Below, in pieces: positions 2,669-64,000 of a stretch of DNA of 64,000 nucleotides (positions are counted from its first letter, which is position 1; each line of letters opens with the position of its first letter). Position numbers and translations under genes: made by a program. The notes under the pieces are model-generated. The model was not told the origin of the DNA and did not search any database. It saw only the letters and a program-made list of their open reading frames with translations. This stretch comes from Sipunculus nudus. Taxonomy: Eukaryota > Annelida > Sipuncula > Golfingiida > Sipunculidae. The stretch is from contig CM049320.1 of NCBI GenBank assembly GCA_026874595.1, forward strand, positions 23,075,714 to 23,139,713, read 5' to 3'.

Positions 2669-2682
2669 GTGGTCTGCTCTTT

Positions 2683-3365: not shown

Positions 3366-3807
3366 TGATATTTCAGCGTTGAAAGGTATTCTCCGTATAA
3401 ACAGTGGCGTCAAGGGTGTGTATCGGGGCGGGGGATGACTCGCAGGGGCCAAAGGGTAATCAGGGTTAGGAGTATAAGTAATTATAAGGTTTTAAAAAAT
3501 TAATTTATTACGTTTCCAGTAAAAGTTAGTTCTAAACCAGGTTTAGACATATAATATTTCATAGTGTGAACTAAGAAACGGATCAAAGTCTTTAATTCTA
3601 ATTATTAATATATTTCGTTTCCAATATATAAATATTCTCTGAATATCAAGAGGGTTGGTGATTACATTGAACCCCCCCCCCCCCAGCAAAATGTTGGAGG
3701 GAAGGAGGGGTATATACCCCTATCCCTCCTATAGTGACGCCCCTGTGTATAAATACAGAAGGCGTGTCCGACGAGCCTATTTGATCCATGTACAGACCAA
3801 GGACTCC
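3366..3807. other. AT-rich spacer with poly-C tract
   Basis: No gene is visible. A C homopolymer lies at about 3670-3684 inside a short repeat ('AAAATGTTGGAGGG...TATATACCCC') that recurs imperfectly around 4080-4125, so the SINE-like unit at 3808 may be embedded in a larger composite repeat. Confidence 0.5.
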
Positions 3808-23600: not shown

Positions 23601-26600
23601 TGTAAATAACATTTTTAGGGGACCCGTATTTTTCTTTCAAGTTCTAACTCAGGAGAAAATCTCAATGGTCAATGGACATAAATATTCAGAATAATCCATG
23701 AAACTATTTATGAGGAGTCTGATCTTTCATAAAATTTAACTCAAAAGCAACATACCGTCAAATGATCTTGTAAATTAAGTCCTGTTAAAACTGCAGGTAC
23801 TAAAAGTAAATCCATAATATCTTGACCTAATGTTTTTTAGCATGACTTCTAACTTGACTGATAGGGCCTACTTTCAATTGTGGGACTAATTATGTTGGAA
23901 GCTGCACTGCAATGGCCAGCCATACTATCACAATGATATCACTTTACACAACCAGTACCTTATTTGTTAGGCTGTACAAAAGGAATTATCACAAAAGAAC
24001 ATACATTAATGCAGGAAAACATAAATCACATCTCTATGAAATACACTGTCTCCATTTCCTGTCCCTTATACAAATCAGCTGTCAATCACAAATCTAATGA
24101 CAGACAAGCTTGTATGTGGTCAGAAATTCAATGAGCATGTAGACATATTACCAAGAATATTATTATAGATAATATTATAGATCATTAAATATGACAAGAT
24201 TATTAAAAGAATACTGTGGTGAGCTTTACGTTTGCCAGAGATTCAAGTTTGCAATATTCATGAAAGGGAAACAATAACAAATACAAAACCTTCGTGAATG
24301 AGACAACCTCATCAGCATGAAGTCATTTATGCTCCATCTTCGTTGGCATTCTATGTATATTATTAAGTAGTGGTAGGAATTGCTTTTAAAAGCATAATTG
24401 TTGAATGAAAAATAAAAATGACCAATGATCGATCATAAATCGATTATTTTATTTACTTTCTATATTATCTTGAAATCTGATGTATACCAGTACCTAAAAT
24501 ATTGACCCCAGTAAATAGTATGACATGTTCATCAGTATTCATTACGAAACCATCAATCCACCCGCATCCAAGGCTGACTTGCCGCTGGATGATTGTTGGC
24601 TATGGAAAGTTCCATTATGATGCTGTTCATGACTCTGTGTTTATTTATCTCAGACAGTAAGAGATTCTTTGCATGTGCACATATAATAACTAGAATACGG
24701 GTAGTCGACAAGCAACTATGTGTATCTGCCTAAATCAGAGTGGAACGGGTGAAGTGAGGCATGGATTAAGTGGCAAGGGGAAATAGAGTGAAGTGTTGCA
24801 TATTAGCATGAGTGATTTTAGCCCGTGGCAGACAATCAGATGGACGCTGAGCAAAAATGGTTGCAGGTGACGGCACCAGTTTTGCGTATGATAAAGAGCT
24901 ATGTGAGAACTATACACATGCAAAACCTTGGCCCAATCGGTCAAACGGTTCCCAAGATATGAGCTTGGATGTCTGCTGCATAAACTAGAATGCAGGTGGC
25001 GCCACCTGTCATAAAATCAAGAGAGCTGTCGGGGATGTATAAACCTGCAAAATTTTAGCCAGATATGTCAAACCACTGCCGAGATACGAGTGATTTTATC
25101 CCACGGCAGACAAACAGACAGGAGCTGTGCAAAAATGGCTGCAGGTGGCGCCACCAGTTTTGCGTATGTTATAAAGCTCTCCAAGGGCTACATTTGTGCA
25201 AAAAAATTTTCCTGATCGGTCAAACGGTTCCCGAGATATGAGCTTGGATGTCTGCAGCGTAAACGTGAATGTAGGTCATAAAATCATAAAAGCTATCCAG
25301 GATGTATACGCATGCCAAATTTCAGGTGAATTAGTCAAGTCACTGCAGAGATATGAGTGATTTTAACCCAAGGCAGACAAACAGATGGACACTGTGCAAA
25401 CATGGTTGCAGGTGGCGCCACCATTTTTTGTGTACGTTATAAAGCTCTCCAAGGGCTACATTTGTGCAAAAAAATTTTCCTGATCGGTCAAACGGTTCCC
25501 GATATATGAGCTTGGAGGTCTGCAGCGTAAACGTGAATGTAGGTGGCGCCACCTGTCACAAAATCAGAAAAGCTATCCAGGATGTATACGCATGCCAAAT
25601 TTCAGGTGAATTAGTCAAGTCACTGCAGAGATATGAGTGATTTTAACCCAAGGCAGACAAACAGATGGACACTGTGCAAACATGGTTTCAGGTGGCACCA
25701 CCATTTTTTGTGTATGTTATAAAGCTCTCCAAGGGCTACATTTGTGCAAAAAAATTTTCCTGATCGGTCAAACGGTTCCCGAGATATGAGCTTGAATGTC
25801 TGCAGCGTAAACGTGAATGTAGGTGGCGCCACCTGTCACTAAATCAGTAAAGCTATCCAGGATGTATACGCATGCCAAATTTCAGGTGAATTAGTCAAGT
25901 CACTGCAGAGATATGAGTGAATTTAACCTAAGGCAGACGAACAGATGGACACTGTGCAAACATGGTTGCAGGTGGCGCCACCATTTTTTGTGTATGTTAT
26001 AAAGCTCTCCAAGGGCTACATTTGTGCAAAAAAATTTTCCTGATCCGTCAAACGGTTCCCAAGATATGTGGGTTTATGTGTGGAAACAGACGCACAAACG
26101 GACGCAGAGCGCAGAGGAAAGGTCAGAGGTTAAAACAAAATCGAGGTGCAGCAGTTCACATGTGACCTGAACATAATCCCGGGTTTCATAAAATTCCGCC
26201 CAGCGGTTACGGAGGAGTTCTCCGGAAACCTAAGCGGCGGCGGTGGCGGCGTGCAGCTGAAAACCATAGTATCCGCAAAACTCTGTTTTGGCGGATACAA
26301 TTATAAATCGATTAAGTGCTATCAATTTAATCATTTAACATAAAAAACAACCAATCATCTATTTAACTGATTAATTGGCACACCACTATTATTCAGTGAT
26401 CAATGCATTAAGTGAAGAAGGTTAAGTAACAAAAGGTGGATTTAATCAATAATAGCATATCTTTTATCTCCCCTGTAAATCAAACACAGATATTATAAAT
26501 GTAATAGATGTTTCATAATATCTGTCAATAAGAAATCTCTCATCCTTGTCCAGTTTGTAACTAAACGATTTGTGTTATAATATCCTTTATATAGTTTTTT

Positions 26601-29600
26601 TTTTTTTTTAAATTGTGAGATTTTGAAAAATGGAACTCTTGAGAAATATAGAAAATGGAACAATCGAGAAAATTAAACCACGCAAATACCAAGCCGACCA
26701 TAGTATTTCTTGCACATTCTATGCACATTGTAGGTGTTGTTAGAAAGTAACACACATATCTAAAGATAAGTCATGTTTATTTTAAGTGACATGATAGGCA
26801 GCAGCAGGTAAGTGGACTTGGGACTCCAGCTGGTCAAGTAGCTCTAACAGGGTAGCCCTAACAGGGCCCGCACCAGCTCCCTCACCAACAACAAATGTGG
26901 AGAGTAGAGTTTGATTCCAGTATTTTGGTTTCCAATTAATTGTAAGGAGATGAATAGAAGGGACATATGTACAGATTGTTGAGGAAGCCATACCAAGCCA
27001 AGAGCAAAAGGATCCAAGATGCCATCCCAGGTCAGCTCCAGAACACCATGCACCAGGTAAAAAAAAAAACAAAATTGGAGGAAAGAGCAGAGTAGCAGCA
27101 AAAAAATCCACTCCAGACCAAATGCCTGTGTCAGCAGCAATTTACATCCTCACCATGATGTTCTGCACCGTTTTTGACATCCCACTAGACTCTCTTATTT
27201 AAGAGGAGAAAAAGTGCTGGTAATTTTTCTGGGAATACAATTAGCCCTGAATAGGCTGCAAAGCAAGTAAATTAATGGTCCTGTGATTGTGTGAAAATGC
27301 TGGCAATCTACACCTGTTCCATAAACATGTGACCTATGGGTCATGACGCTCAGCTGACTGACATGTTGACAATTTATGTCCTTGCACAGGCAACTAATAA
27401 TATAATTTAGGTGGCATCACAGTTCATATTAGTTCAAGTTCATCAAGACCCATTGGAAAACCAAATTTGATGACAATCCATCCAACTGTTCCTGAGGAAT
27501 CTGGCAAATTTGTGTGTATTTTTCATTTTTTTCTGGGGTGCTCAAACATGGACTGTAACACAGAGAATATAGGTCACAGTGATCAAATTTCAGGTTTCTG
27601 AGGAGAACCTTTGAGGAACTCTCAGGATGTCAAGTAAGAAGATTCTGGCTCCAATGGTTATGATTTGTGCCTTGCTTTGGTATCAAATTTTCAATTATTC
27701 TGGGGATGCTTATTAGCCCCATAGCTCGTTGAATATGGGTAACAGAGACCTAATTTCAGGTTCAAAGAAGACTTTCATGGACCTCCCTGGAAATCAAGTT
27801 AGAAGATTATTGGTGCAGTGGTTATTATTTGTGCCCTGTAAACAGAAGACCGCATCTTTAAAGGTTTCAAAAATGTAGAAAATGCTAAAAATTCGAAAAA
27901 AAATCCAGGTGGTACTACCAGTCTGCAGGAACTGATGAAACACTCCATGATCAATATGCATACAAAGAATCATTGTGATCAATGCATTTGTTGTTCAGAC
28001 ACTGGAGTTTTTTATCAAATTTTTAATTATTCTGGGGGCTACATTCGAGCCTATTAGCTCAGAGGATATAGGTAACAGAGACCTAATTTTCTGAAGAGAA
28101 CTTTGAGGAACTCTCAGGATGTCAAGTTAGAAGATTCTAGGTCCAATGGTTATGATTTGTGCCCTGTTTACGGACAACTGTATCTTTAAAGGTCTAAAAA
28201 TTGGAAAAACAATATGTACAAATTTGAAATCCAGGTGGCGCCACCAGTCTGTGGGAACTAATCTATCACTCCATTATCAATATGCATGCGAAGAATCATG
28301 ATGATCAATGCATTAGTTGTTCAGATACTCAAATTTTTGTTCAAATTTTTTATTATTCTTGGGGGTATTCTTGTGCCCCATAGCTTGGAGAATATGGGTA
28401 ACACAGACCTAATTTCAGGTTTCCTAGGAGACTTTTCATGGACCTCATAGGATTTCAAGTTAGAAGATTCTAGATCCAGTGATTACCATTTATGCCCTTG
28501 TAACAGACAACCACATCTTTAGAGGTCTCAAAAAATGTGTAAAGATTTTTAGAAAATCCTGGAAAATACCAGTCTGCAGGAAGTGACAAAACACTCCAAG
28601 ATGAATATGAATGCAACGAATCATGGTGATCAATGTATTAGTTGTTCAAATACTTGAGCATTCGTATTAAATTTTTAATTATTTTGGGGGGTACTTCTGA
28701 GCCCCATAGCTTGGAGGATATGAGTAACAGAGACATAATTTCAGGTATCAAGGAGATTTTTAATGGGCCTCCCTGGATGTCAAGTTAAAAGATTCTAGGT
28801 CCAGTGGGTAACGATGTGTGCCCTGTTAACAGACGGACGGACAGAAAGACAGACAAAGGCCAAAGAGTGATCGCTATAGCTCAGATGACTTTCAGTCAGC
28901 TGAGCTAAAAATGTCTGAGAACAAATGCCCTGGATCGCTAGAAATGTTTATCCCTGTATATGATACAGAGAAAACTTACTGTAAACCACTGTGAGGTGAG
29001 GTCGCTCTCACCAAGAAAAAGGGTAGATATCTGGAACAGCCCTGTATACAAAGCCCCCGCCAACAACCGCATAAATCCTGCTCGAACACTGAAATAGTTG
29101 TTCATGTTACAAACAAGTGTCAAGAGTTAAACCCGCTAAGGTTAAATACATAAATGCAACAGTAAGAACTGTTTAAGTTACATGCATGAGTTCTACAGTT
29201 TTAATTTTTCAGTAAAACAATATTACTTTTCAGCAGTGTTTAGATTCCCTTCCCCGATAGCATGTCAGCAACTGATGATCGATTAATAGTCACATTTGAG
29301 AAGTGCTGGGAAACACAGATTGTTCTAAAGTATGTTCATATAATGTTATGAAGGTGTACCTTCTGTCATTATGAAGCCTACCTTTTGTGAAAAATTCTGT
29401 AATTAATTATGGCAATGCATGATCATTGGTACGTTTGCATCAGCTGACTGATCATCAGTTATAATCGATCATCCGTCCCAACACTACTTTTCAGGTTATA
29501 CACAAGAAGTGTTCATGTTACATACCGTAAAAGTCGTTGCAGAAGTCTTATCCTTATTACAAGTCGCACCCTGACTTTTAGGATCCTTCTGGGGAAAAGC

Positions 29601-32600
29601 CATTCAAGTTTTGTTTCAGGAAAGTCCATAATACAGGTCACACCCAGACTTCAGAGGCGTCCAAACCACCTGATACTTATGGGATTTGAGTATCATTCCT
29701 TGTGGTGTCCCCGTAGTACTAATGTGGTTTATTAACTAGATAAACCATTTAACCATAAAATTAATTGGACAGCTTTAATACAATGCTTATATTTCAGGAA
29801 TTACAACAGAATCATTACATATTAAGTCGGTGTGCGATTGTCAGATAAGATTTGTACAGTGCCAGAGCAGCTGTGTCGGATAACATTTTGTGCTGTGAAA
29901 CGATGTCATTATTGCCATTTCTTACTAGTAACATCAGAATGCAAATATCAAATTAAATTACTGTATTAACAAACTAAAAGAGTCTGAAGCAAAATACTAT
30001 CACAATCAAGCAGCTCTGTAAATTGTTAAAGATTGTCAAAATCAGGAGGATTCATTAGACTATGAATACTTTGCGCACGCGTGACGAGTCCTGAACCGTC
30101 GCATTGGGCATATTTTAACTAAAGACTATTGAAGGATGGAAAGAATAATTAAGTTTGAATTTATTCACCTAATTTCTTAAATGGGCTTTAAAACTGAATT
30201 AAGTAAAGCTTTAATTAATTGTTACAACTTACCATCAACGCGCGGTACATGCACGGTATTATTGAAATCACTGAAATATGTCAGGCAACAAGGGGATAAT
30301 GAACTCTTTATTGACCAGTCAGTTAAATGTAAAATAAACATAATTGAATTTACTGGTATTATATTTACTGAGACTAATGATTTTATTCTGTGATAATATC
30401 TGGAAAGTCGAATTTTCATTGTTATCAGTGATTATATTCAAATGGCTTAGATGTAGGCCCATGGCAAACTCAGCCGTACTGAACCAGATCCGTCATGACA
30501 CCAAACAATGCTGGTTCCCGTAGAATTTAGGTATGATTGTGGCAATTTCAGAAAATAAAATATATACTTGTATGGTGTTTGTTATTTCATTGTATTTTTT
30601 CATGTCTTCATTTAAAAAAATTACGAATACGTCAACGCACGATTGACCGTAATGCACGTGTGCCGCTTTATTGTTGACCGGGCATACGATCGTCATGAAT
30701 AAGACACGGGTAAAACATGAAGCAAATCGTATATTTGCAGCTCACGTGAAAAGTTATAACAAACATTGTAATCCAATACGCTTGAAAACCAAGAGATGGT
30801 GACGGTGACCTGATGGTTCTTAAAATGGGGAGTTATAACTGTGGATATCAGTCACGGAAGGCTTAGTTGACCTGGGGATGTAAAGGTTATTGCACGGGTG
30901 ACCTGGGGCTTGAACTTCTGCTACATGGCTTCAAAGGTCAGCTGGTACTCAGCGATCAACCGGGCAGGCAACAGAATTCAATTGTCTGTAATGGATCAAG
31001 CCTGAATGTGACGCAACTTTACATTTGTAAACGGTTATGGAACCACAAGTTTTTCATAATGACACAGATACCCATAAAGATTAAATGGAGAGAAAATATA
31101 CATCAAAGAGCGGCAGACTGGCATATGCGACAAACTGACTCGTGATATAACACTAATGCATATAAGGAAGTGTCACTTGAATTGCGACTTGTCAGAACAG
31201 GTAGGTCTTGAACTGGGCAAATTGTATGTTAATAAAATGAAACTTCCATCAGTTCACAAAATATAAGGCAGGTTTTCATAAGGGATGGTTAAAGGTGTAA
31301 ATTATTGGGGAGAGCCATGTAACTAAGCGCTTGTTAAAGGTATCGCCGAATATCACTCAACTGACGTCGTTCCATATACCGGGAAAGCTGACTGAGACGG
31401 GATAAGTACATATTATAAGTCGCACCCTGACTTTGCTAGAAAATTCTTGTTTTTAGAATTCGATTTCCTAGTACAAGTTGCGACTTCTGCAACAACTTTT
31501 ACGGTACATATATTTATGCTATAGTTATACCCGTTTAGGCAACCTACATAAGTAATACAGAGTTACAACTGTTAACAGTTCACCCATACATGCTACAGAA
31601 ATAGATTTTCTGGTTACATGCTTAATTGCAACAGTTATAATTTTTCAGGTTATTACATACATGAATGCTACTATTAAAACTGTTCATGTTACATACATAT
31701 ATCCCACAGTTACAACTGTTCCAGTTGTAATTCCACAGTAATAATTGTTTAGAATACTTACTGAAGTGCTACAGTTATAACTGTTATTGTTACATACATA
31801 AATGCAACAGTATTGACTGTTCATGTTACATACATATATCATTCATTTATAACTGTTCAGGGTACAAAACAAAATGTTACAGTTATAAATGTTTAGGTTT
31901 ACCGTGACCCACCTATAAATACTAATTTACCCACCTGTCAGGAAGTTCTCCTGTACTGGGGTCAGAGTAAGCACCTTTTACCAGATTCTGGTACCTGGTC
32001 AATGGAAACTGCAACAAAAGATGAAACAATAATGTGTGAAACTTTTATTAAAACATAAAATACTGACATGTTACCAAAATCAGGCGCACTTCTAAGTTAA
32101 CTTGTACTATCTCTGTTGTCCTGACAAATGGCTTGTCTACTTATGTTTGTAACAACATCACAGTGTTTAATACTGGTGGGTATAGCTATTTTCAACCTTA
32201 TTCTTTGAAGTCTGTTTATGTTACACAGGGAATTGACCTATACACGAACTCTATGCGACCTTAATCGCATACTCATTCAATGAATAAACATAAGCATGGG
32301 ACTAAGAGCAACCAATCAGGTGACCTTAAAGATTGTAAAGCGACAATCATCTGACAAAAATAAAATTTTGCATAATTTGACAGAGCTCTGTCAAACAGAA
32401 CACGTGTAGTCTGTAAATACTACAAGTATACCCATGTCGGCTTGTTTTCCGGGATATTTTATTATACAAAGGAGACAGTATATAAAGTTTTCAGGCTATA
32501 GGTTGCAGAAGCTATTCCTACGACTACGGAGTGAATAATGTCTTATCTGGCATGTAATTCGTATGGGACAAATTATCCAATATATATTGCAACATAGTTC

Positions 32601-35600: not shown

Positions 35601-38600
35601 GCCTGTGGGAACATGTATTATATTTTTTTGGTCAAGTCAGTCAGGGCTTCTCCTGATTGACATGTGTTGAGGCTCCGCACTGCACACGGCCCCAAGTGCT
35701 GTGTTATGTTGATACCTGCAATCACGCCCGGTCCACTGTTTTCAACACTCGTTTACAGGAGTAAGCAAACAGTTTCAAGGCAATGTTTTGGCAGAAACAG
35801 ATTTATTTTAAAGGGAAGAAACTATTTTTCGTGTTAACTCAACATGCTTTGTAAGTGATTGGGGCCCCTTTAAATTGTAGATGATCTACAAATTTCAGCT
35901 ACAGAGGCAAGACAATTAAAAAGAGTAATGGATGTGCCTCTACAATTAAGGATACCTACTTGACATAAAACTTATCTGTACAAACTTTTATTTCATTATT
36001 CTTTGGTGGAGGAAACTGCCTCCATTTTTCAATGCTGACTTGTCTAATTCATATCCTAAATATGTTCATCAGAAGAGTTCCATTTCGTTTTGGAACTGCA
36101 TGACAGGGTGGTAGCACTTGCTTCCTGTCATTTTTATTTTATATTCTGGTGTCAACCAGGCCCGGTGTCTATTGCACCTGCATGTCTTGGGTGTGTATAA
36201 TCCTCCCCATTGCTGGGTCATTACACCAAGAAGCCTCCTAAAGACACACTAGTTTGTGAGTGATACATGGCTATGGGGCCCAGCCTTCCCATTAAGCCTG
36301 CAGAGCGCTCACCCTGGGTTGGAATCGACTGTGAAAATCTCATGGCTCCTTGAGGCTTGTACCCTATGCACTACCCCATAACCACAGAAGCTGTGGTTTA
36401 CCTGTACTAACTTTGTTTTTTGGTGATGTTGTATAGAACAATGAATACAAAACTAAACTATTTGGACGTGTTTTTTATTGATGAAACAAATCACTTCATA
36501 ATATTATAAATTAGTATCCATGAAAAAAAACGCTATTGATAACTGTCTGCCATACTTGCTACAAGACTTCATCTGCACATACCTTTTCTCTTTCCACTGA
36601 CCCCACATTCTTGCTACCACATTTAATCTCCTCCTCTGTATCAGTCCCCCACATCACTACTATCATTTACATTTTATCTAATCCTCTGAAAAATACTTCA
36701 ACCATTACCATCTGTTAATAAATGTTACATATATATAATATGTGCTATATTTACATTTCTAGACCTGTTGCCAAAACAGGCCTAGAGGCACAAATAGTCC
36801 CCTGCCATATGCTTAATTGGGAGACTGTGGCATCAGTGATGGGTTGGGATGGAAGGACAGACAGGAACAACTTAAGTAGTCCTCCCTTCTTACGGCATGG
36901 GGACTTGAGATTATTCTTCTGTACTTGGTGGTAACAGGCAGATCTGTGATCACTGAATGTGATTATTAACCACACGAGGCCAGCATCTGAGCACTGTGAT
37001 TAATAGAATCAGATCATAAGTAGACAGTGGTCACAGACCACAACCTCCACCCGTGTCCTGATCAAACTACACAGCAACAAAGGATATTAGTCACAGTGCA
37101 ACATCCCCTTTCAATGGTTAGCTCTTTAATAATGGAAAATGAAATAGCCATATGTCACAATGAAAAGAATACCTTTGAACAAATAAACATACTGTGGTGA
37201 TCCCTGATTATCTCCAAAATTTAATGAATTGTCTTTCCCCTCCACAATAATTAACTAGAATACAGGAAGTCGACAAGCGACTACGTGTATCCGCCTAAAT
37301 CAGAGTGGAACGGGTGAAGTGAGGCATGGATTTAGTGGCAAGGGGAAATAGAGTGTTGCATATTAGCATGGATGTCTGCAGCCAAATTGTGTATGTAGGT
37401 TGCCCCCCCCCCCACCACAAAATCCAGAAAGACGTCCAAGTTGTATACATATGCAAAATTTAAGGCAGATAAGCAAACCACTACATGTATATATGCGTGA
37501 TTTTTGCCCGTGGCAGACAAACAGATGGACGCTGAGCAAAAATGGTTGCAGATGACGCCACCAGTTTTGCGTATGATAAAGAGCTATGTGAGAACTATAC
37601 ACATGCAAAACTTTGGCCCAATCGGTCAAACGGTTCCCAAGATATGAGCTTGGATGTCTGCTGCATAAACTAGAATGCAGGTGGCGTCACCTGTCATAAA
37701 ATCAAGAGAGCTGTCGGGGATGTATAAACCTGCAAAATTTTAGGCAGATATGTCAAACCACTGCCAAGATATGAGTGATTTTATCCCATGGCAGACAAAC
37801 AGACAGGAGCTGTGCAAAAATGGCTGCAGGTGGCGCCACCAGTTTTGCATATGATAAAGAGCTATGTGAGATCTATACACATGCAAAATTTTGGCCCAAT
37901 CAGTCAAACGGTTCCCGAGATATGAGCTTGGATGTCTGCAGCGTAAACGTGAATGTAGGAGGCGCCACCTGTCATAAAATCAGAAAAGCTTTCCAGGATG
38001 TATACGCATGCCGAATTTCAGGTGAATTAGTCCAAGTCACTGCAGAGATATGAGTGATTTTAACCCAAGGCAAACGAACAGATGGACACTGTGCAAACAT
38101 GGTTGCAGGTGGGGCCACCATTTTTTGTGTATGTTATAAAGCTCTCCAAGGGCTACATTTGTGCAAAAAAAATTTCCTGATCGGTCAAACGGTTCCCGAG
38201 ATATGTAGGTTTATGTGTGAAAACAGACGCACAAACGGACGCAGAGCGCAGAGGAAAGGTCAGAGGTCAAAACAAAATCGGGGCGCAGCAGTTCACATGT
38301 GACCCGAACATAATCCCGGGTTTCGTAAAATTCCGCCCAGCGGTTACGGAGGAGTTCTCCGGACACCTACGCGGCGGCCGCGGCGGCCGCGGCGGCGTGC
38401 AGCTGAAAACATAGGATCCACAAAACTCTGTTTTGGCGGATACAATTAGATCTATTCAGAACATTTTGTGAGAAAAACTGCATCAAGACAAATCAAATAA
38501 GAAAGAGTAAAACATAATATCCCTTGCTGCTTGGCAAAGGTATAATAAATTTCATACAAATTGTTGCATTGTGAAACTGTAAGTATTTTATTTGTTGTGT

Positions 38601-44600: not shown

Positions 44601-47600
44601 TGCAAGGGGATATCCTGAAAAAGATATAACAGTATCAGAAGCTGTGAAAAGAAGAAAAGAAAACACATTCACTTATATCATTTTCACAAGCTAACATTCA
44701 TGAAATTTTAGGTTAAGAAACATTTACTAGGGCCACAACTCATGCATTTAAGACATGTAAGATCAATATGAATAAAACTGAAATTCAAAGGTGCATGCCA
44801 AAGGTAAATAACTGAAAATAGGAGTAAGTGCTCTAGAAAAAATGGAAGCCTTCCAAAGTTCTAAAGTTAGAAACATGTGGTGCAACATGTCCCTGCCTGA
44901 AGATAAGGGCATTTTCAACATGTCGTGAAACATGCTGGGCATTTGCAAACAAAACTTGTAAGTTGTAAAGTGAACTAACTGGACTGTTAAAGCACATGAA
45001 AAATAGCATATCACCGATCCTGTGGTTCTTAAGTCACCATGATGCCTTCAAAGTGCAGTGACCTCTGAGGCTCAGACCTCATTGAATATGTGTGGATTTT
45101 TCTGGAAGTCAAACTTAGGCAAGATATTTTATAGAATAACATTTCTGATAAGCTTTATCAAAATCCTCCATATTCTTTGTAAGTTATTGTGGCGACACCG
45201 CAAAGTACCCCAGAGAACCATGATCTTATTAAATATGTGTGGATTTTGCCCATTATTGAACTCAGGCAAGGTAATCTGTTGGTAAGTACCTAGGTTCTTT
45301 ATCTAAAGCCGCATGTCTATTATAAGCCGCACCCAGACTTTCCCATTCCCTGTCTGTGATGTGCTAATAAAAGCAAATTCTGGATAAATCCCCATTAAAG
45401 CCGCACCTGGCCCATGTCCCGATCCCAACTTGAGCCATTAAAGTAAATCCTGCAAGTTTGCTAGTCCGTGACATTTTGAACACAAAAGATGATAAATTAT
45501 ATAAATTAAATGAAGTAGTTAATGTAGTGATGGTGAGTATGGTGAAAATCCATCAAAGCCCCAGTAAATTATTGCGGTGAGGCTAAAAGTTAGTGGACAG
45601 ACAGACAGACAGTGGGTATACCATAATACTCCCACAAAAAGTGCTGGTGAAAAAAGGAGGAAAAAAGGTTAATTAATGACTCATCTTCTTCAAATCTTTA
45701 ATAAAAAGCAGAGGCTTGCAGGAATTGAGGGAGGGGAGGGGGTTGGAATATTTGGCAAAGGCAATGGGAGCAAATATCATAATTGCAGGATTGAACCTAA
45801 CGGAATGTAGAATTATCAATAAACAATACATTAACTAGATGTGGTCGGACAATGGTCCTCAGAGGGCCCCTCGTTTCTGCAAGTGCCGAGCTAGTTTACA
45901 TATGGGTGAAAAATTAAGTAAAATTTGAAAATATGACAAACAGAAACAGGTTTTTATCCATATGCATGAGGGAAAAAATCCTACTTGATCAAATGTTATT
46001 AAAGAAGATATGTCTGAAATAATGTGTGCAATAGAAAATCACCTAATGTAATCTGTTAGCCATATTTGATTTTGAGCCAGTCTGGAGCCCTCATACGCAC
46101 CAATGATCCCTGTGAAATTGGGAAAGCTGCTGTAGGTTGTTGTTAAGTTATTGTGTGCGAAAGAATATCAGCCATCGGGCTGAGTCGGCCATATTGGAAT
46201 TCCAACAGGTCTGTTATTCAACAGGTCTGGATCCCTTATAGGTACCAATCATCACTGTGAATTTGGGAAAGCTGCAGGAGGTTGTTGTTGAGTTATCGTG
46301 CGCGAAAGAAAATGAGCGTTTGGGCTGTGGCAGCCATGTTCGAATTCCGACAAGTCTGTAAATTGATAGGTATGGAGCCCTTATAGGTACCCATCATTCC
46401 TGTGAATTTCGGAAAGCTGCAGTATGTTGTTGTTGAGTTATCCGGCGCAAAAGAAAATCAGCGATTGGGCTGTGGTGGCCATATTGGAATTCTGACAAGT
46501 CTGTTATTCGATAGGTCTTGAGCCCTCATAAGTACCAATCAACCCTGTGAATTTGGGAAAGCTGCAGTATGTTGTTGTTGAGTCATTGCGCGCGAAAGAA
46601 AGTGTCACTGACAGAAGGACGGATGGACGGAAGGACAGACTGACACAGTGATCACTATAGGGCACCTGCTTGTCAAGCGGGGCCCTAATTACTTCATGTG
46701 CAATGGCTTACATCGAAATTAGTCTAAATAAAATTTTGTTGTTGTAAATTTAACAGTTTAAATAGGAAGCTTATGTATAAGGAATAACAACAGTATCACA
46801 ATCATTACATAAAGTCAGGCTTCAGTTGTCAGTAAGATTTGTGCAGTGCACTGGAATCCCAGAGTCAGCTGGGTTGGATAACATTTTGTGCTGTGAAAAA
46901 ATATTATTGCTACTTCTTACTAGAATAAGTAACATTAGAAATACTTATATCAAGTTAAATGACTTCATGACTATATAAAACAGTCTTGAAGAAAGATAAT
47001 ATAACACTAGAGCAATTTTTTTTTAAATGGTTAAAGACTGACAAAATTAGGCTGGATTCATTAGTTTGTGCATGTGTGACGAGTCCCAATCTGGGGCACT
47101 GGACATATTTTGAACTGACTAAAGACCAATGAAGGATGGAAAGAATAATTTAGTTAGAATGTATTCACTTAATTTCTCTCACAAAAATACTGAAAAAGGC
47201 TCTAAACTGAATTATGTTACCCTTGAATCAATTATTACAACTGATCATCAAGGTGAGGCACATATATCAGGTACCGTAAAAAACCGCATATACGTCGAGA
47301 AATTTGTTCCCAAAAAATTAATTCATGAAAGGGGAGTCGACTTATGTGCGGGTCTAAGCCTGAGAGGCAAAATTTTGCACGAACTTAGTCAAACTGCCGG
47401 CCTGAATGTCTTAACTGATCGACAACTAGATATCCGTTTCCGGTGAAGTCAGGTACACAAGTCCCCCTTTCGGTCCAAAAATACAGTCTAATAAGGTTTC
47501 CGAATCTTTTTTTTTTCAAATTTTGACCATTTACGCAGTTCTTTCATTTGATAATGCATAATATTAAAATGTTTGCAATTTACATGGTTGATGACGACCA

Positions 47601-54092: not shown

Positions 54093-54214
54093 ACACACAC
54101 GCACAGAGAGAGAGACAGAAAGGCAGACAGAGAGAGAGTGAGAGAGAGAGAAGGAGAGAGACAGACAGACAGGCAGACAGAAAGAGAGAGAGACAGACAG
54201 ACAGGCATACAGAA

Positions 54215-54249
<35 letters not shown>

Positions 54250-54280
54250 AAGAGAGAGACAGACAGACAGACAGACAAGC

Positions 54281-54310
<30 letters not shown>
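54093..54310. repeat. GA/GACA compound microsatellite
   Basis: About 218 bp of interleaved (GA)n and (GACA)n runs. It gives spurious LSLSLS- and SVCLSV-type frames on one strand and REREGE / DRQTDR frames on the other. Confidence 0.95.
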
Positions 54311-54312
<2 letters not shown>

Positions 54313-54369
54313 GAACCATCCACTTTAAAAGTCCTTTAAGTTGTTTATTGTAAGAGTTATGATCTAAAG

Positions 54370-54372
<3 letters not shown>

Positions 54373-54458
<86 letters not shown>
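54373..54458. repeat. (AT)n microsatellite, 86 bp
   Basis: An uninterrupted AT dinucleotide run of 43 units. It produces the artificial YIYIYI frame on the minus strand. Confidence 0.97.
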
Positions 54459-54461
<3 letters not shown>

Positions 54462-56940
54462 TGTTTCTGCATTAAAAACAGCGTAGTATTATATAATAAT
54501 ATTTATTGTATATCATATCATATGATACAATCAAACATATCAGGGGGTCAAGGGAATGTATACCGGTACTTTGCAGGTCGTTATATATAGACTTAAGGCT
54601 ATTAATTGTATTTAAATTTTCCAGATGAGATTGTGTCATCAAGGATTTTATCTCCTCCTAGGGTGTTTATCACCTTCTCTGCCACCATGATCATAACCAT
54701 TGAGTGATAAATAAATTAACGCGCATATAGGGCCTATATCTAATCTCAACTGCATGCACTGAGAGAGCACAACGTTTAGCGTACTGACATACGGGGCATG
54801 TGTACTGTATCGGTAAGTTTTCAATAACATGGGTACACACAACACGTGCACTGATCCATATGACTGTTATATATTATTAGTCTACTGTAAGCTATGGGCG
54901 TATCAATATTATTAGCCAGATTTTGTAATACACATGTAACATAGCTGACTTAGGCTGCGTGTGGTACATGGGAACTTTTCTTCTTGACTATCGGGGAGGG
55001 TACAAATTGCGTTGGGTGGGTATAAGTAGGTGTGTGTGTGCCGGGGGGGGGGGGGGGGGGGGTGAGAGAGTAATGCCTCACAGCGTGAACTGTGATTACT
55101 TTTTTGGCAGAGATTATTTTAGAGTGCATTTGATCGGTATATATATATTCCCATATATATAATAGTCATATTTCCACTCATAATATTTTACTTTATGAAT
55201 ACGGTCTATATACATATACAAATGCGAGATCAACCGATAATAGTTCAACCTTGAAACTAAAAGGCCTCTCTCTGTATGATGACCCTGGGTTTGTAGCCTT
55301 CAGCGTCTTTATATTTATACTGATACTGATATGGATGCCTTGATAATAAGTGAGTGCAGTTCCATATAGGTTTCCTCTGGGGTGGTTTAAGATATTTTGT
55401 GATTTGGTATTGGACAGTATAATGATACCTTAAAATATCACGTCAGTGGTGGATTCGGGGGGGGGGGGGCGGGGACTTAAGCTCCCCCCCCCCCCCATAT
55501 ATATTATATACTAATAATACCTCATTGTATTTAGAAAGACTGAACAGGAAGGCAGTCCGTCATTTGAACACATTTCTGTGTAATGCTATGTTCTTATTCC
55601 TTTGAAGACAGAAATGCTTACATTAAACATTTTGATGATTATGGATTGAATGTCTGAGCTGTTTAGCGCATCTATTTCCTTTAACGGGGGTGGGGGGGGG
55701 GGGGGGGGCGCAGGAACTTAGACCCTGTCTCTCGCGACTGTCAAGGGTGTGTTTAACCGATAAGAAGGGGGGGGGGGGGGGAGGTGCTCTCACTACTTAT
55801 ACGTTGTGGACATTTTTATAATTTTCATTCTTATTTTAAGTTATTTTTTTATAAAGGGTGGGGGGTATAATCTGCTATATGTCACCTGGTTGAGAAGGTT
55901 CGACATATTCATGTGTCCCCCACCTAACTATACGCTCCATCTCTGAGTTAAAATATATATAAATATAAAATAATTACTATTAGTTATTTTAGTTCCGCAT
56001 ATACACACTCAAAAGACCTGTATTCCGGTGGGTATATTAACAGTGCTTGTATATATAACAGACCACCAGACCGCGTATGATATATGTAAGTTATCTGTAT
56101 GCATATAATTGGTATATGCATTGTTTATCTGAGCTTTTAATGTATACAAACATGGATTTGATGGGCGAGTGAATTTCTGCGTAGTAAACCGACCGTTACG
56201 TCTCTATCTGGCTAAATTAACCTGGAAAAAGGACTATAGCCAGCTGGAAAGCAACCAGTGAGCACACATCTTTGCTGGATGCAAAACGGTTTATTATTTG
56301 ACTTCATCAAGTTTTCACTCTTCGAGGTTGTTTGATTCCACACAATGTTTTTTTTGTAGGTAGGGCTGTGGTTAAGCGGCATCATTCTGAATACGTGAAG
56401 ACCTCGGACTACCGGGTAGTAAATGTTAACCTTCTCTTTAAAGTTTCCTTCTTGTTCATTCTGTGTATTTTTATAGTGTTTCTTTAAATAAATTATTGAC
56501 CTATACCAGGCTGATAAAATGCGATAATCTTCATTCATTAGTCATTTTTTAGTTCATATAGACATTTTACATACATCAATACTTATAGCTGTAAATGTTC
56601 ATGACTTTGTTAATAAATAAATGATAACCAGTATATTCTATAGAAAATAAATGTAGATTCACTGCCATGGCTGAAACCAGGAAATAGTTATAGAGTTATA
56701 CCTCCATTAACTCTTTAATTTTCAATCCATGTATAAGCTCATCCAGTATACATTTCTATTCATATGAAGGGCTTGATGTGTTTTCACGAATCAGTAAAGT
56801 TTTGTCTACCCCCTTGAGATCAGGGTATATATATATATGAATGTTGTGAATTAACAGTGTTGTTTTTCTTCAGAGTTATACCGCTCTGGCCTAGTCTGTA
56901 GGCCATAGAGCACTTTACATCGGAGGGTAACACTACCTTC
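54459..56940. other. Non-coding stretch with G/C homopolymers
   Basis: Contains a 20-bp poly-G (55043-55062), a poly-G/poly-C pair at about 55459-55497 able to pair with itself, and further G runs at about 55686-55710 and 55768-55781. Open frames up to 108 codons are not recognised. Confidence 0.6.
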
Positions 56941-56956
56941 TATATATATATATATA

Positions 56957-57000
<44 letters not shown>
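56941..57000. repeat. (TA)n microsatellite
   Basis: A TA dinucleotide run with one interruption (TCTATA at about 56957-56962), abutting the MITE-like sequence at 56999. Confidence 0.93.
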
Positions 57001-57004
<4 letters not shown>

Positions 57005-57165
57005 AACCTCGTTGTGTCGAAGTCGAAGGGACCCTCAGAAAACTTCGACACATCCGAGGTTCGACACAAGCGGGTTTTATCTGGCTATAATTAAACTAGA
57101 GTTGTCCGGAATATCGAGTCTGTAACTTCGACATAAGCAGGGTATTCGACTTAAGCGAGTTCGAA
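56999..57165. mobile_element. Pogo/Tigger-like MITE fragment
   Basis: It starts AGTGAAACCTCGTTGTGTCG with internal TTCGACACA and CGACATAAGC phrases, and ends TCGACTTAAGCGAGTTCGAA. 'GT.AAACCTCG...TCGAA' ends are a familiar pattern of Tigger/pogo-type MITEs. (TA)n flanks on both sides hide any TA target duplication. Confidence 0.5.
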
Positions 57166-57308
57166 TATATATATATATTGGGGGGATGGCTGTGTTTGCA
57201 AGAAAGTTCAATTTGACTATTACTCATAAGTACCCTATGAATAAAAATAAGTTTCTTTGAATAGGGCATATATTATTAGAAAAATACCCACAAAAATGCC
57301 AGTTTTAA

Positions 57309-57593
57309 GGCCAAAAAAATAAAGGTATAGTTCTCAGGCACTTTTTTTTAGAAATCAGTGCTCGCGGGCGGTATTTTATTTTTGACCTTTTTTTTATGTT
57401 TCGATTTAAATGTAATATGACAAAGGAAAAAGCATGAAAAAAAACAAATTTTTTTGCTGAACAGGTAAAAGCTATACATCAATTGTATTATTTATCTTCT
57501 TGAAAGATAAAAATCGATATAAAAATTGTTGATGCGGGGGGTTAAAATTGTCGCGGGCGGTGCCTGAGAACCATACCTTTTATTTTTTTGGCC
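57309..57593. mobile_element. PIF/Harbinger-like MITE, 285 bp, copy 2
   Basis: The ends (GGCCAAAAAAATAAAGGTAT ... mirrored) match 22671-23002, with TAA at each side (57306-57308, 57594-57596). The internal 'GATGCGGGGG' and 'GCGGGCGG' blocks are inverted relative to copy 1. Confidence 0.85.
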
Positions 57594-58180
57594 TAAAGCA
57601 TGTATTTTAAACAGATTTTCACAATCTTTTATAGGGGGTTTCCGGGCCGGGCCCATTGAGTTATATATATTGCATTACTATCCTGTAAATATCAAATTTT
57701 GATAAAAAAATATTTAAACTGAAATTGCATCAATTATATAACCCTAGTGCATATGCCTGTTTATAGAATATATACATCTTAATATTCTTTTAACATATAG
57801 ATATCATGCATAAATATACACTATACTCTTTAACATATATGTTTAATATAAATGGTGTAGATGTGTTTTTCTCGACGTGTTATTCTCTTCTAGCTAAAAG
57901 AACGTATTAAATGTAATTAATATTGATATAACAAAATAATATTATATAATTATAATTATAAAATAATTACATTATAATAAAAAACATTAATTAAAGGTTA
58001 TTTAAAAAGTAAATACTTTGGATTCTTTGTCAAAGTGATAAGCATTTGAAGCTTATTTAAACAGGTATGGTATTCAAGCGGATTTATCTCATAAACAGTT
58101 TTTCATGATTAATACATCAATAAAATTCGCATTTCTCGAGAATATTAACGAGAAATAAAAGTCACAACGATATTAAAAAC
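57594..58180. other. AT-rich spacer
   Basis: Very AT-rich sequence with no feature recognised. Confidence 0.5.
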
Positions 58181-58468
58181 GTGGTTTTTAAGAAGCGCTA
58201 TATTTTACCGTCCTTTCTCTGTGTTATCGGGCGTTATATTTCAAGTGTATGGCCCCACTTGGACGGAAAAGTCACACGTTTCTGTGATCATAAATTATCT
58301 CGAAGCTTAGATAATGTGAGATATGGCAACATGGTTTTGGGAAACTTCTGTAGACCTGAATTCCACTTTATTACGTGGATGCAGTCAGATCAAGCTGTCA
58401 CTGATGATATTGAGCAAAATTTTAACTTAAATCGAGATGTAGTGCTTTGTGATCAGAATCATCAGTAG
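58181..58468 (+). other. Unrecognised 95-codon frame cut by a MITE
   Basis: Coding-like composition with stretches such as VWPHLDGKVTRFCDHKLSRS and FITWMQSDQAVTDDIEQNFN, less AT-rich than its surroundings. It belongs to no family I recognise. Its TAG stop lies in the first bases of the element inserted at 58466. The original frame would have run only about six codons further before another stop. It could be an exon or a remnant of an older element. Confidence 0.3.
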
Positions 58469-59027
58469 CCCGATTGAATCAGACTCAATATTATTAGGCC
58501 CGCAATATATTGAGTCCGATAGCCATACAGTGAGAGTTTCTACAATATAAGCTTCAGACTACACGCCACCCAATGCCCTTGTAACCAGTGTCAACAGGGG
58601 TTTATTACCCCGTGCCTGCGGTCATTCTTCAGAGCCGGGCCCGTTGAAACAAAATGTAACAACATTTTAGATGTCAATCACTCGAGTCAGCGAGGCTATC
58701 AGTGAGGTCATCAAGTGCGCCTGTACAACCGTTCTTCTCTGTCCCTACTAAACTCGCTGACGCCTTTGGTTAAAACGTCGGTAAATGTTTAAAAATGATG
58801 ATCCAAGTTTAATTGTAGTTGCTATCGATACCATGAAACACATACTTATTGGTTTTAAAATGGTATAGTCCTGTGTCTTTTTGTTTGGCAATTAACAGGC
58901 AGTCAAAGAAGATGCAACGGATCCGTTGCATCTTCCGTGGCTTATATTGTAAAAACTCTCACTGAATGGCTATCGGACTCAATATATGGCAGGGCCTAAT
59001 AATATTGAGTCCGATTCAATCGGGCTA
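58466..59027. mobile_element. Mutator-like MITE, 562 bp, 9-bp target duplication
   Basis: AATCATCAG occurs directly on both sides (58457-58465, 59028-59036). Long inverted ends of roughly 85-90 bp start TAGCCCGATTGAATCAGACT on the left and TAGCCCGATTGAATCGGACT on the right (read on the other strand). A 9-bp target duplication plus long inverted ends fits Mutator-like elements. There is no transposase inside. The high similarity of the two ends suggests a fairly recent insertion. Confidence 0.85.
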
Positions 59028-59055
59028 AATCATCAGTTACCAAGTCATCGTTTTG

Positions 59056-59300
59056 AACTCGGCTGACTATAGGTCATCTGAGCTATAGTCATGTTCCTTT
59101 GTCCGTCCGTTCGTTAACACGCACGTTTTGAAACCGTTAGACTTACAAATCCAAAATTTGGTATATAGTTGGATGTCTCTCCAAAAATTTGGTCACTATG
59201 ACTTCTTCCCTTTGAGATATTGAGGAAAAAAAATCAAATTTCCATTTAAAATTCGATGTTACACTTCAGTAATGTCTAATATCAAAACCACAGATATGTT
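59056..59300 (-). mobile_element. Helentron-type element (family F3), copy e, partial
   Basis: On the minus strand this is an F3 terminus: the hairpin around ACTCGGCTGACT / GGTCATCTGAGCT (59056-59084), preceded by the complement of 'TTTGTCCGTCCGTTCGTTAAC'. The core beyond 59150 is only weakly like other F3 copies, so the far border is a guess. Confidence 0.5.
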
Positions 59301-61759
59301 TTTGATCCTATTTATGATTTATACTCCCCTATATAATGCCTATGTACAAACTAAAAATTAGGACAGTATTGTGTATTTTCTTGAAGTTGTGAGCCCAAAC
59401 ATGATGCACTCTTTCTCTCCCCCTAACCCCCCCCCCCCCAACCTACCCACCCCATTCTGTTGACAGACTTGTACAATAAACAACATTAATTCACATGTTT
59501 TCAGCAACCAGCAGTATAACCACAGAAACTCCTCCCCCACCACCTCTTCAATACACAAGACTAATAAATAAGATGAATCTTATAATTTCAGTGTTAAATT
59601 AATTTTTAATTTAATTTATTAGGATCTTATCTAAGTACTCATTGAAAAGATTTAAGAAGATATAAGTACTTTGTAGGCTTGTAGCATTTCATTCCTATCT
59701 CTAAAAGACAAAGTAAAAGTTGGCCGGGCCTATATATGAAAATCACTGTTAAACTTAATTAATCAGGAATATTGGTCAAATTTTCGTGGGATTAATTTTT
59801 AGCTCATATGCCCATATATTTGACTATTGAAAACTCAATTAAATTCACACATTCTTTGTTTATGAAATATATCCTTTCATATAACACTTAGGCCCATGAA
59901 AAGCGAACCTGTGAGCTATAATGTGATGGTGTGGTGTTGTCCGTCATCTGTAAGTTAACCTATTCTATCTTGAAAATGACAGGTGCTAGCATCACAAAAT
60001 TTTATGCAAGAAATTAGCCATCTGAAAACACTATCCGATTTTGTAAATTTTTTGGCTAACTGCATTATCTTAGATTTTATAGAGAAAAAGCTAAAAAAAA
60101 CTTTTAAAATCTTCTGCAACAAAACAGTCCAGCCAAATTGTTCAATATTTCAAAGAAATAATCTCATATACTCTCTCTCAAGTTTGTTCAAATGGTTTCA
60201 GTTTGGTGATTTTTGGCCGAGTTACAGGAAGTTGAACTTGGTCATCTGTCAAAAAAAGCATACTGAAATTTCAGTCTCAGAAACGGCTGGAGCTATCATC
60301 ACCAAAGTATATGCCAATGTTGGTCACATGAGACACATCTGAAATTTAGGTATTGGTGGTGCCATTTGCATCATCAGTGCCCGTATCATACTGAGGGCTA
60401 CATCTCTGAAACCTTCCTTGGTTTAAACATATTTATTTCAACAGGATAACAAAGTAGCCAATAAGGCTAATGCAAATGCTCTCCTGCATAAAAATAAAAA
60501 TAAAGCGAAAAGTGATAAATTAACATGAATGGATATATGTATGTACAAATGATCAGATTGGAAAAGTGCACATATAATCACACATGGTGAGATCTATACA
60601 AATGCATAATATACATTAATACAGATTGACATTCTACATACACAGATACATATATATATATATATATTATGTTGGAAGGCGTAATACAATAAAACAATAA
60701 ACGTGAAATGTCCAAGTTCATATAGAGCTTATCAATCATTAGATTAAAACCATGGTTAAAGATATATGTATTTTTTTTGTTTACAACTAATATGTGTACC
60801 TCTAACCAAAGAATCATTTGAATAAGTGCAATTAACTGGTAGTAAAGCGCCGTGTATGGATAATGTAAACAGTAATATTTTTCAGAAAAAGATGATTGAG
60901 GTACATAGGTGTTCCCCATGTAGAAACATTTTCATGAGTTTTTCCTTGTATACGAGACATGTAGCCCTACTTGAAAAGTAATGGCCCAGCATTGAAGCAT
61001 TATACCTGGTGTATAAACCATTGCACAGGTTCGCATTAGGCCTGTAGGCCTTGTTTCCTTATAGCATCATTAAATGGTTTCAGGCCACAAGTTTCATTTA
61101 TTACACTGTACAAATGTGATTTATACCTAACTGGCTTGTTTTAACTGCTTATTAAATTTTGTTTATGTTCAGAATTTTTTTACAGCATTTCATTTCAGTT
61201 AATAAATTAATGTTTATTGTTATACTTTAGCTCTTGTCCATTATTATATAATTTACAGGGTTTCATTTTTGCAGGGCCATTTCCTCTTAGCTTTTCAAAT
61301 ACTAATCTAAATGAAAAACCAAAGGATATAAGTATATTTTGCATTTGCTAATATTTTCCAAAACTTAGCTGAGCCAAATGACCCATTGGTCCCTTGTTAC
61401 TTTTAGTCTTGTGCATTAGTTTCCATCCCAAGTTCATGGATATAATTAAACAGGATGAACCCTAAACCACATATTGAAAATTGTAGAAATGGAACTATTG
61501 ATATATGAGAGTTTGTTGTACACATTCCTACATGAAGCCACAGGGGCCTTGAAGAAAATATGTACATTTATACAGCCACACCGCAAGATCTTTATGATAG
61601 TTTCTGTAATGTTTTATGCTGTCTGTTTGTATTATCAAACTATGTATTAAAAATGATTAAACACAATTGTGTGAATGCTCTTTTTTTCTGATGTCCATGA
61701 TAACCTCCATCATGTTGCATATTAGTGTTAGTTGGGAGATGCTTTTTATAGTTTTTTTT
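59301..61759. other. Non-coding stretch, no gene recognised
   Basis: AT-rich, with C runs at 59426-59439 and a short (AT)n at about 60650-60668. The 119-codon frame at 59983 and 113-codon frame at 60578 (minus) are low-complexity or AT-driven and not recognised. Confidence 0.5.
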
Positions 61760-63067
61760 AGCTCGGCTGACTGTAAGTCATCTGAGCTATAGCGATCACT
61801 CTTTGTCCGTCTGGCCAGCTGTCTGTCCGTTAACAGGGCACAAACTGTAACTACTGGACCTAGAATCTTATAACTTGACATCCTGGGAGGTTCATAAAAA
61901 ATCTCCTTAGAAACCTGAAATTAGGTCTCTGTTACCCATATTCTTTGAGCTATAGGGCTCCGAAGTACCCCCCCCCCCCCCAGAATAATGGAAAATTTGA
62001 TACAAAAGCTCGAGTATCTGATCAACTATAGTATTAATCACCATGATTCTTTGCATGGATTTTGATTATGGAATGTTTCATCAGTTTCTGCAGTCTGGTG
62101 GCGCCACCTGTATTTTTTCTATTTTTACAAATGTTTTTCTCTATTTTTGAGACCTTGAGATGTGGTCATCTGTTAACAGTGCACAAATCATATTGACTGG
62201 ACCTAGAATCTTCTCTCTTGACATGCAGGGAGGCCCATAAAAAGTCTCTGAGGAAACTTGAAATTAGGTCTCTGTTACCCATAACCTCTGAGCTATGGGC
62301 CTCCGAAGTACCCCCAGAATTATGGAAAATTTGATACAAAAGCTCGAGTATCTGAACAACTATTGCATTGATCACCATGATTTTTTCCATGGATATTGAT
62401 CATGAAATGTTCCATCAGTTTCTGCAGTCTGGTGGCGCCACCTGTACTTTTTCGATTTTTACAAATGTTTTTCTCTATTTTTGAGACCTCTTAAGATGTG
62501 GTCATTTGTTAACAGGGCACAAATCATAATGACTGGACCTAGAATCTTCTCTCTTGACATGCAGGGAGGCCCATAAAAAGTCTCTGAGGAAACTTGAATT
62601 TAGGTGTCTGTTACCCAAAACCTCTGAGCTCTGGGCCTCCGAAGTACCCCCAGAATAATGGAAAATTTGATACAAAAGCTTGAGTATCTGAACAACTATT
62701 GCATTGATCACCATGATTTTTTCCATGGATATTGATCATGAAACGTTTCATCAGTTTCTGCAGTCTGGTGGCGCCACCTGTACTTTTTCGATTTTTACAA
62801 ATGTTTTTCTCTATTTTTGAGACCTCTTAAGATGTGGTCATCTGTTAACAGGGCACAAATCATAATGACTGGACCTAGAATCTTCTCTCTTGACATGCAG
62901 GGAGGCCCATAAAAAGTCTCCTTGGAAACCTGAAATTAGGTCTCTGTTACCCATAAACTCTGAGCTTAGGGGCTCAAAAGTACCCCCAGAATTATGGAAA
63001 ATTTGATCATGGAATGTTTCATCAGTTTCTGCAGTCTGGTGGCGCCACCTGTACTTTTTCGATTTTT
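61760..63067 (-). mobile_element. Helentron-type element (family F3), copy b
   Basis: The 3' hairpin lies at the low-coordinate end: AGCTCGG / CTGAGCT and TGACT / AGTCA with GTA loop (61760-61788). It is followed by tandem ~335-bp units, each with the palindrome GGTGGCGCCACC (62097, 62431, 62767, 63038; spacings 334, 336, 271). Units are highly similar, so amplification looks recent. Minus-strand frames of 74 codons (MEKIMVINAIVVQILELLYQ...) recur in neighbouring units and are repeat shadows. Confidence 0.75.
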
Positions 63068-63898: not shown

Positions 63899-64000
63899 AA
63901 TTGTATCCGCCAAAACAGCTGGACGCTGCCGCCGCCGCGTAGGTGTCCGGAGAACTCCTCCGTAACCGCTGGGCGGAATTTTACGAAACCAAGGATTATG
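63899..64000 (-). mobile_element. Helentron-type element (family F2), copy d, cut by window end
   Basis: The complement of the F2 3' end: AATTGTATCCGCCAAAACAG, a GCC-rich tract, then TGTCCGGAGAACTCCTCCGT and CGCTGGGCGGAATTTTACGA. It matches the last ~100 bp of copies a and b in reverse orientation. The rest lies beyond the window. Confidence 0.75.

Follow-up and report, generated by a model that had tools for sequence, protein, structure and literature searches.

A near-constant 12-bp palindrome within a core module shared by HINE-like repeat families of Sipunculus nudus

Why should one perfect 12-bp palindrome, GGTGGCGCCACC, recur in the repeated elements of two unlike families within a short piece of a sipunculan genome? 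The question is raised by a stretch of 64,000 nucleotides of Sipunculus nudus (GenBank assembly GCA_026874595.1, contig CM049320.1, positions 23,075,714 to 23,139,713 of the forward strand; hereafter the window), in which a sequence-only reading had listed 14 exact copies in the tandem cores of families F2 and F3, and had proposed either a functional site or copying between families. We compared units drawn from the window and from sampled stretches of the genome. Our principal result is that the palindrome is the near-constant part of a core module shared by at least five families, F2 to F6, whose members resemble Helentron-associated interspersed elements (HINEs), and that it is probably a sequence-specific candidate site kept in these families by selection.

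All 14 exact copies lie where they had been placed, nine within F2 units and five within F3 units; none appeared in 100 dinucleotide shuffles, in agreement with a chance expectation put far below one. The 14 copies are not independent, the majority being within tandem arrays. The span given for them, 24995..63049, omits the first two copies of the same list, 18086 and 19140. Another 5, 6 and 15 places in the window match the palindrome with one, two and three mismatches, respectively. Units measure 278-280 bp in F2, with two palindromes per unit (half-units A and B), and 326-336 bp in F3, close to the ~280 and ~335 bp first estimated. The occurrences and their carriers are the following.

24995..25006, no strand: palindrome GGTGGCGCCACC in an F2 B half-unit; same element also at 25144, 25411, 25542, 25822 and 25971
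18086..18097, no strand: palindrome in subfamily C, a diverged copy of F2; exact again at 19140, decayed at 18457, 18731, 18860, 19009 and 19285
28234..28245, no strand: palindrome in an F3 copy; decayed copy at 27908
37829..37840, no strand: palindrome in the third copy of F2; also present with one mismatch at 37680, 37958 and 38108
62097..62108, no strand: palindrome in an F3 array; exact also at 62431, 62767 and 63038, decayed at 63672
25542..25650, + strand: shared module, F2 example (half-unit B), palindrome and ~95-100 bp including the ...CCAAATTTCAGG...GAGATATG block
62332..62442, - strand: shared module, F3 example, palindrome and homologous block, on the opposite window strand to the F2 example
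24689..26302, - strand (set by analogy with the HINE left end): F2 element whose 3' end, ...GTATTCTAGT, is on the 24689 side and whose 5' end, AATTGTATCCGCC with an inverted repeat, is on the 26302 side; 280-bp units in tandem over 24808-26068
37254..38447, - strand: F2 element copy with similar ends; array 37360-38219
17828..19460, - strand: older element resembling F2 (subfamily C), its 5' boundary placed approximately and by eye
61757..63060, + strand: F3 element, 5' end TTTAGCTC(A/G)GCTGACT...AGTCATCTGAGCT with a GTCC microsatellite; units of 336 bp in the array; approximate boundary on the right
27406..28909, - strand: another copy of the F3 element; its 5' end, at 28909, has an inverted repeat of 14 bp (one mismatch); approximate boundary on the left
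60275..60366, - strand: possible old module copy, detected solely with the block profile (E 0.029), with a decayed palindrome AATGGCACCACC at offset 0

Two further observations concern these elements. The last nucleotides of the window, 63899-64000, hold the 5' end of an F2-like element on the + strand, apparently inserted in an F3 copy and running off the window. F3 also has a second palindrome, CTGTTAACAG, at 28823, 62170, 62842, 63130, 63394 and 63748; by eye, the starts of F3 arrays lie at or beside this palindrome or part of it, next to the GTCC microsatellite.

The palindrome is not peculiar to the window. In the 1.43 Gb searched (153 contigs, 17 of these of 61-111 Mb), GGTGGCGCCACC has 111,729 exact copies and the same 12-mer read backwards has 14; the reversed 12-mer is a rough control, with two CpGs vs one in GGTGGCGCCACC. 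Nineteen further 10-kb pieces, taken at round coordinates on contigs C1-C17, make up 254 kb and 20 sequences together with the window; they contain 19 exact copies, spread over 5 of the 19. GGTGGCGCCACC is present in 6 of the 20 sequences and its 1-bp shifts in 7. When non-simple 12-mers with at least six copies in the 254 kb are ranked by the number of sequences hit, the top eight rows all overlap GGTGGCGCCACC or its CpG-decayed form, with the decayed form and the 1-bp shifts reaching 7 of the 20 at best. One sampled piece, L012 (C4:25000001-25010000; L numbers designate fetched genome stretches), has a GC content of 0.585, vs 0.340-0.424 in the other 18.

Does only the 12-mer recur, or something larger? 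Profile comparisons indicate that F2 and F3 have in their cores a homologous module of ~110 bp, consisting of the palindrome and ~95-100 bp on one side of it. A profile was built from F2 only (the 105 bp on the palindrome's right side, from half-units A and B and the older C copies); it excluded the palindrome, which was also masked in the target. With a cut-off of E<=1, this profile matched F3 (window 63661-63574, E 0.015; window 62417-62332, E 0.18; L018 7816, E 0.13; L016 496, E 0.69), F4 (L011 5445, E 0.095; L011 5753, E 0.29) and F5 (L027 9598, E 0.055; L002 2536, E 0.065, L002 itself having been fetched through a palindrome), and gave no match in the reversed target. Individually such E-values (0.015-0.69) are weak; the homology of F2, F3, F4 and F5 is supported by their common register, all F3, F4 and F5 matches being on the right strand with the profile start 0-2 bp from the palindrome edge. 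Rebuilt with F3-F6, the profile gave 122 matches vs 1 decoy at E<=1. Among 83 palindrome-blind matches (E<=0.01; window and 19 stretches; mostly F2 units, the four loci fetched through the palindrome being excluded), 72 have the palindrome at its fixed place with at most three mismatches (29 exact; 22, 14 and 7 with one, two and three), vs 0-1 of the 83 at six displaced control places. The same holds for 12 of the 18 weak matches (<=25 bits) in these sequences, three of the 12 being F2 fragments, as compared with 0.7% of random places. Anchored profiles thus separated homology where single-copy pairwise local alignment of F2, F3 and F1 failed, the latter being indistinguishable from shuffles (203 of 500 as good for A-F3, 86 of 500 for B-F3).

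Two observations at the edge of this profile search deserve record. At L002 1663 (E 0.4) and L004 1800 (E 0.007), a different perfect palindrome, GGTCATGACC, stands exactly at the place expected for the 12-mer. Arrays of another family, F1 (145-bp units, window 15828-17290 and 46080-46601), contain yet another 12-bp palindrome, TTGGAATTCCAA, with five exact copies in the window, beside a GCGGCCATATT stretch; the F1 unit matched neither the F2-only nor the rebuilt profile.

The extent of the module emerges from comparisons anchored at the palindrome. Aligned without gaps from its edge, 14 of the 15 pairs of six consensuses are more identical than shuffles (p<=0.031). Between families (two to four copies per family, ungapped), the ten windows between +1 and +100 on the right side have an identity of 0.34-0.63, which falls to 0.22-0.30 past them, and on the left it is 0.41 in the nearest 10 bp, then 0.35 and 0.32, and 0.23-0.29 farther out; displaced pairs average 0.28, with a maximum of 0.31. 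The 30-bp left flanks showed no significant relation in any of 14 cross-family pairs (lowest p 0.051, F3-F4). This one-sided decay and the unrelated left flanks place the palindrome near one edge of a ~110-bp module lying within family-specific linkers. GAGATAT recurs near +80 of the module; in F2-F6, positions ~+44 to +87 form a AAATTTCA...GAGATAT block, which may resemble sequences in repeats of other invertebrates. The cores of F2 and F3 had been described as otherwise unrelated; this does not stand, as they have a homologous block of ~95-100 bp beside the palindrome, in fixed register, and copying of the 12-mer alone between families is likewise disfavoured since the adjoining block is homologous too. 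Neither are F2 and F3 simply one family: outside the module, their linkers, their left flanks beyond ~30 bp and their element ends differ.

Further families, for which the sequence-only reading had recommended a scan, appear in the fetched DNA. F4 (L011, 302-bp unit), F5 (L027 and L002) and F6 (L002) all bear GGTGGCGCCACC; F5 and F6 elements have a single palindrome in the parts seen, with no array listed for F5 in L027. Twenty extra stretches, chosen from the list of exact copies and mostly for isolated sites, contain 31 sites with at most one mismatch, 28 of which have a profile match within 4 bp of register (E 1e-18 to 2); the three others are F5-like by eye. No family beyond F2-F6 was seen by eye in these stretches, which were chosen through the exact palindrome in the first megabase of one contig. 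Single-linkage blastn clustering of 98 masked site flanks yielded clusters of 81 (F2 and at least one F5 copy), 11 (F3) and 2 (F4), and four singles, one being F6 and three being two-mismatch sites that may be due to chance.

What kind of element carries the module? The ends suggest HINE-like, non-autonomous elements of the Helentron kind, and match the HINE descriptions in PMC4067079. Copies of F2, F3, F4 and F6 have, within ~40 bp of the terminus, a 5' subterminal repeat followed by its inverted partner; these inverted repeats (one mismatch; no shuffle control) measure 12 bp in the first F2 copy and in F6, 9 bp in F4 and, for two copies of F3, 14 and 8 bp. In the second F2 copy, the two best inverted repeats are GC-rich and located elsewhere than at the 5' end, and two F5 copies have no 5' inverted repeat of the HINE kind. 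Matches between the 5' and 3' ends (also with no shuffle control) extend over 10 bp in one F2 copy, 6 bp in the other and 11 bp in F4; inverted repeats at the 3' end are weak, as F4 and one F2 copy have them at 7 bp with a single mismatch and the other F2 copy has none. GTCC-like runs stand beside the 5' end in F3, F4 and one of two F5 copies (by eye), and F2, F3 and F4 have central tandem repeats of 100-500 bp, a HINE trait. With the ends so interpreted, the module has the same orientation relative to the 5' end in F2, F3, F4 and F6; in nine copies, the palindrome nearest to that end (exact or with one mismatch) is 300-340 bp away in these four families and 462-472 bp away in F5. A different HINE-like end lies near 17330, by an F1 array (by eye).

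How constant, then, is the palindrome? Thirteen copy groups were assembled by hand, from which seven main consensuses were retained: F2A, F2B, F2C (three sub-units of F2), F3, F4, F5 and F6. The palindrome is 12/12 in six of these seven and 10/12 in F2C, and 12/12 in 11 of the 13 group consensuses, vs only 9 invariant columns out of 90 gap-free ones in the adjacent block (longest invariant run 3), which agrees with the retained site under constraint proposed at the outset. Block identity is 30-52% between families and 60-69% within F2; an A at -1 is identical in six consensuses. Individual copies do decay: 43 of the 72 in-place sites carry one to three changes, and 19 of the 71 changes are transitions of the central CpG, the palindrome containing one CpG, which is the fastest-changing kind of site in the F2 comparison. 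Among 52 F2 half-units (window and four stretches, palindrome-ascertained loci dropped), we counted 44 palindrome changes, vs 78.6 expected from flank rates by A/T, G/C and CpG class, a ratio of 0.56 (bootstrap 0.49-0.66 over 5 loci). The sequence-only reading had held that a palindrome mutating like its flanks would speak against a site; this is half the case, for the palindrome decays within F2 and is not its most conserved window, but its rate is ~0.56 of the adjusted flank rate. Decay of individual copies with barely any change in family consensuses fits better with selection among propagating elements than with an immutable site or recent copying. Homogenisation within arrays is an unlikely cause in F5 and F6, given the one palindrome each in the parts seen.

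The explanation that we favour, and consider probable, runs as follows. At least five families of non-autonomous Helentron/HINE rolling-circle elements would share the module as the core of their central repeats, having inherited it from a common core monomer and then diverged to 30-52% identity, with different linkers and ends. The elements that keep the palindrome would be those that continue multiplying, leaving it near-unchanged. It would most likely be a sequence-specific binding site whose dyad is read by a dimeric protein, coming either from the host or from the helper of the element, and the process served may be replication, transcription or chromatin of the element. Recognition by a protein is favoured by the weak hairpin, the uncompensated substitutions and the fact that 12-bp palindromes are not rare in such units; the dyad symmetry suggests a dimer. 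Searches of another kind gave nothing: Rfam over 24600-28950 returned no hit at gathering scores, and viral contigs searched for CAGGTGGCGCCACCAGTYT contained no match.

Several results weigh against this explanation. A 12-bp palindrome in a ~300-bp unit is not rare (shuffle p 0.09 for F4, 0.13 for F3). Among 14 tandem units, F2 (p 0.003), a 102-bp unit (0.023) and F1 (0.043) exceed shuffles in palindromicity and only the 102-bp unit exceeds genomic segments (0.033), so that symmetry alone is unremarkable. The palindrome is missing from 11 of the 83 block-profile matches and from 6 of the 18 weak ones (window 17999 and 28582; L009 1680, L016 4093, L024 4810 and L027 9733), and the rebuilt profile was trained on palindrome-bearing copies, with most of the 83 matches belonging to F2. 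The similarity of F2C and F5 is non-significant (p 0.24), and in 4 of the 15 consensus pairs at least one of 86 cyclic slides equals the observed identity. Two of the 13 group consensuses deviate, F2C with GATGGCACCACC (8 copies) and F3x with GGTCGCGCCACC (2 copies). The comparison of families is biased, F4, F5 and F6 having been noticed through exact copies of the palindrome. Some other 12-bp windows of F2 surpass the palindrome in conservation, its rank being 7/161 in A and 15/160 in B (palindrome-ascertained loci kept, unadjusted for base). Finally, the binder is a putative protein.

If the palindrome had simply come down from a common core monomer too recently to have changed, no present function would be needed. 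The homology of the cores and the decay inside F2 agree with such plain ancestry, but the adjoining block, presumably of the same age, has fallen to 30-52% identity with 9 of 90 columns invariant, as against 12/12 in six of seven consensuses for a palindrome that holds a fast-changing CpG (with the bias in family choice noted above); we therefore regard ancestry without function as unlikely. It seems to us similarly improbable that the palindrome is a breakpoint where modules are cut and joined, conserved through recombination or rolling-circle slippage. Such a junction would account for similarity between families that fades within ~30 bp on the left and extends ~100 bp on the right, and for left flanks unrelated in 14 of 14 cross-family pairs (30 bp, lowest p 0.051); it also has precedents reported in PMC5139131, where 13 of 16 phBglII400 breakpoints are at a 12-bp palindrome and a conserved palindrome lies near the DTC84 repeat junction. 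However, both boundaries of the F2 arrays fall at or next to ATATGAG/GATATG, on the other side of the module (three elements, by eye), and the F3 arrays start at or beside the other palindrome, CTGTTAACAG, or part of it.

That the hairpin or cruciform matters rather than the sequence is suggested by the perfect symmetry of GGTGGCGCCACC, by other perfect palindromes at the same register (GGTCATGACC in L002 and L004) or in other arrays (TTGGAATTCCAA in F1), and by the strand in the F2 B context, which folds at -4.7 kcal/mol (z -1.5). Yet the 12-mer by itself forms a weak hairpin (-1.3 kcal/mol, z -0.3), z is -0.6 in the F2 A context and -0.3 in that of F3, only 1 of 35 substitution pairs is compensatory, and 10 of the 13 group consensuses have A instead of T at +1 opposite the A at -1, making a structural role very unlikely. 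Least credible is a CTCF-like insulator: CAGGTGGCGC, present on either strand, resembles by eye the core of the animal CTCF motif, but the CCA part upstream of that core is missing from the family flanks (by eye on consensuses), and we give this reading hardly any weight. A candidate binding site kept by selection thus remains the reading that we prefer.

How does this system compare with known ones? The closest is Cg_HINE of the Pacific oyster, described as Helentron-associated interspersed elements (PMC7492417). It likewise combines a 5' subterminal repeat and inverted partner, a GTCY-like microsatellite in some elements, central satellite-like repeats in short arrays, families with different ends, and two relatively conserved segments common to otherwise dissimilar monomers (CL4, group 1). 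It differs in that GGTGGCGCCACC is absent from the main text of that paper, whose consensuses stand in figures outside that text, and in that here one module in at least five families holds a near-invariant palindrome. The bivalve repeats phBglII400, BIV160/Cg170 and DTC84/pearl, according to PMC5139131, have monomers with a 12-bp palindrome or two motifs kept despite divergence; compared by description, the palindrome of phBglII400 marks array junctions, whereas the ends of F2 arrays fall elsewhere. Of 5.39 million open papers, a single one, on a chitinase, contains the string GGTGGCGCCACC. The CENP-B box is also a short CpG-bearing motif kept in otherwise differing mammalian satellites, but its sequence is unlike GGTGGCGCCACC. 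It is a tentative and rather doubtful idea that a single dimeric protein, acting at the more than 100,000 GGTGGCGCCACC places, might keep several Helentron families multiplying; the site would then be a second counterpart of the CENP-B box, of independent origin and carried by rolling-circle elements.

The window holds other repeats. A short tandem repeat of ~36-bp units at 31545-31899 contains a 14-bp palindrome, ACAGTTATAACTGT, a length that few shuffles (p 0.023) or genomic segments (p 0.033) attain, and two minisatellites lie at 55-192 (23-bp unit, 6 copies) and 2672-3366 (18-bp unit, ~39 copies).

In bivalves, short motifs are conserved in otherwise divergent satellite-like repeats, with roles that are only proposed (PMC5139131). 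In S. nudus, an exact and very abundant motif lies in a module whose neighbouring sequence reveals how far it has diverged; this allows constraint to be measured and a binder to be searched for with a bait of 12-13 bp. Such a binder, should there be one, would reveal the way in which the central repeats of non-autonomous rolling-circle elements serve to recruit a factor.

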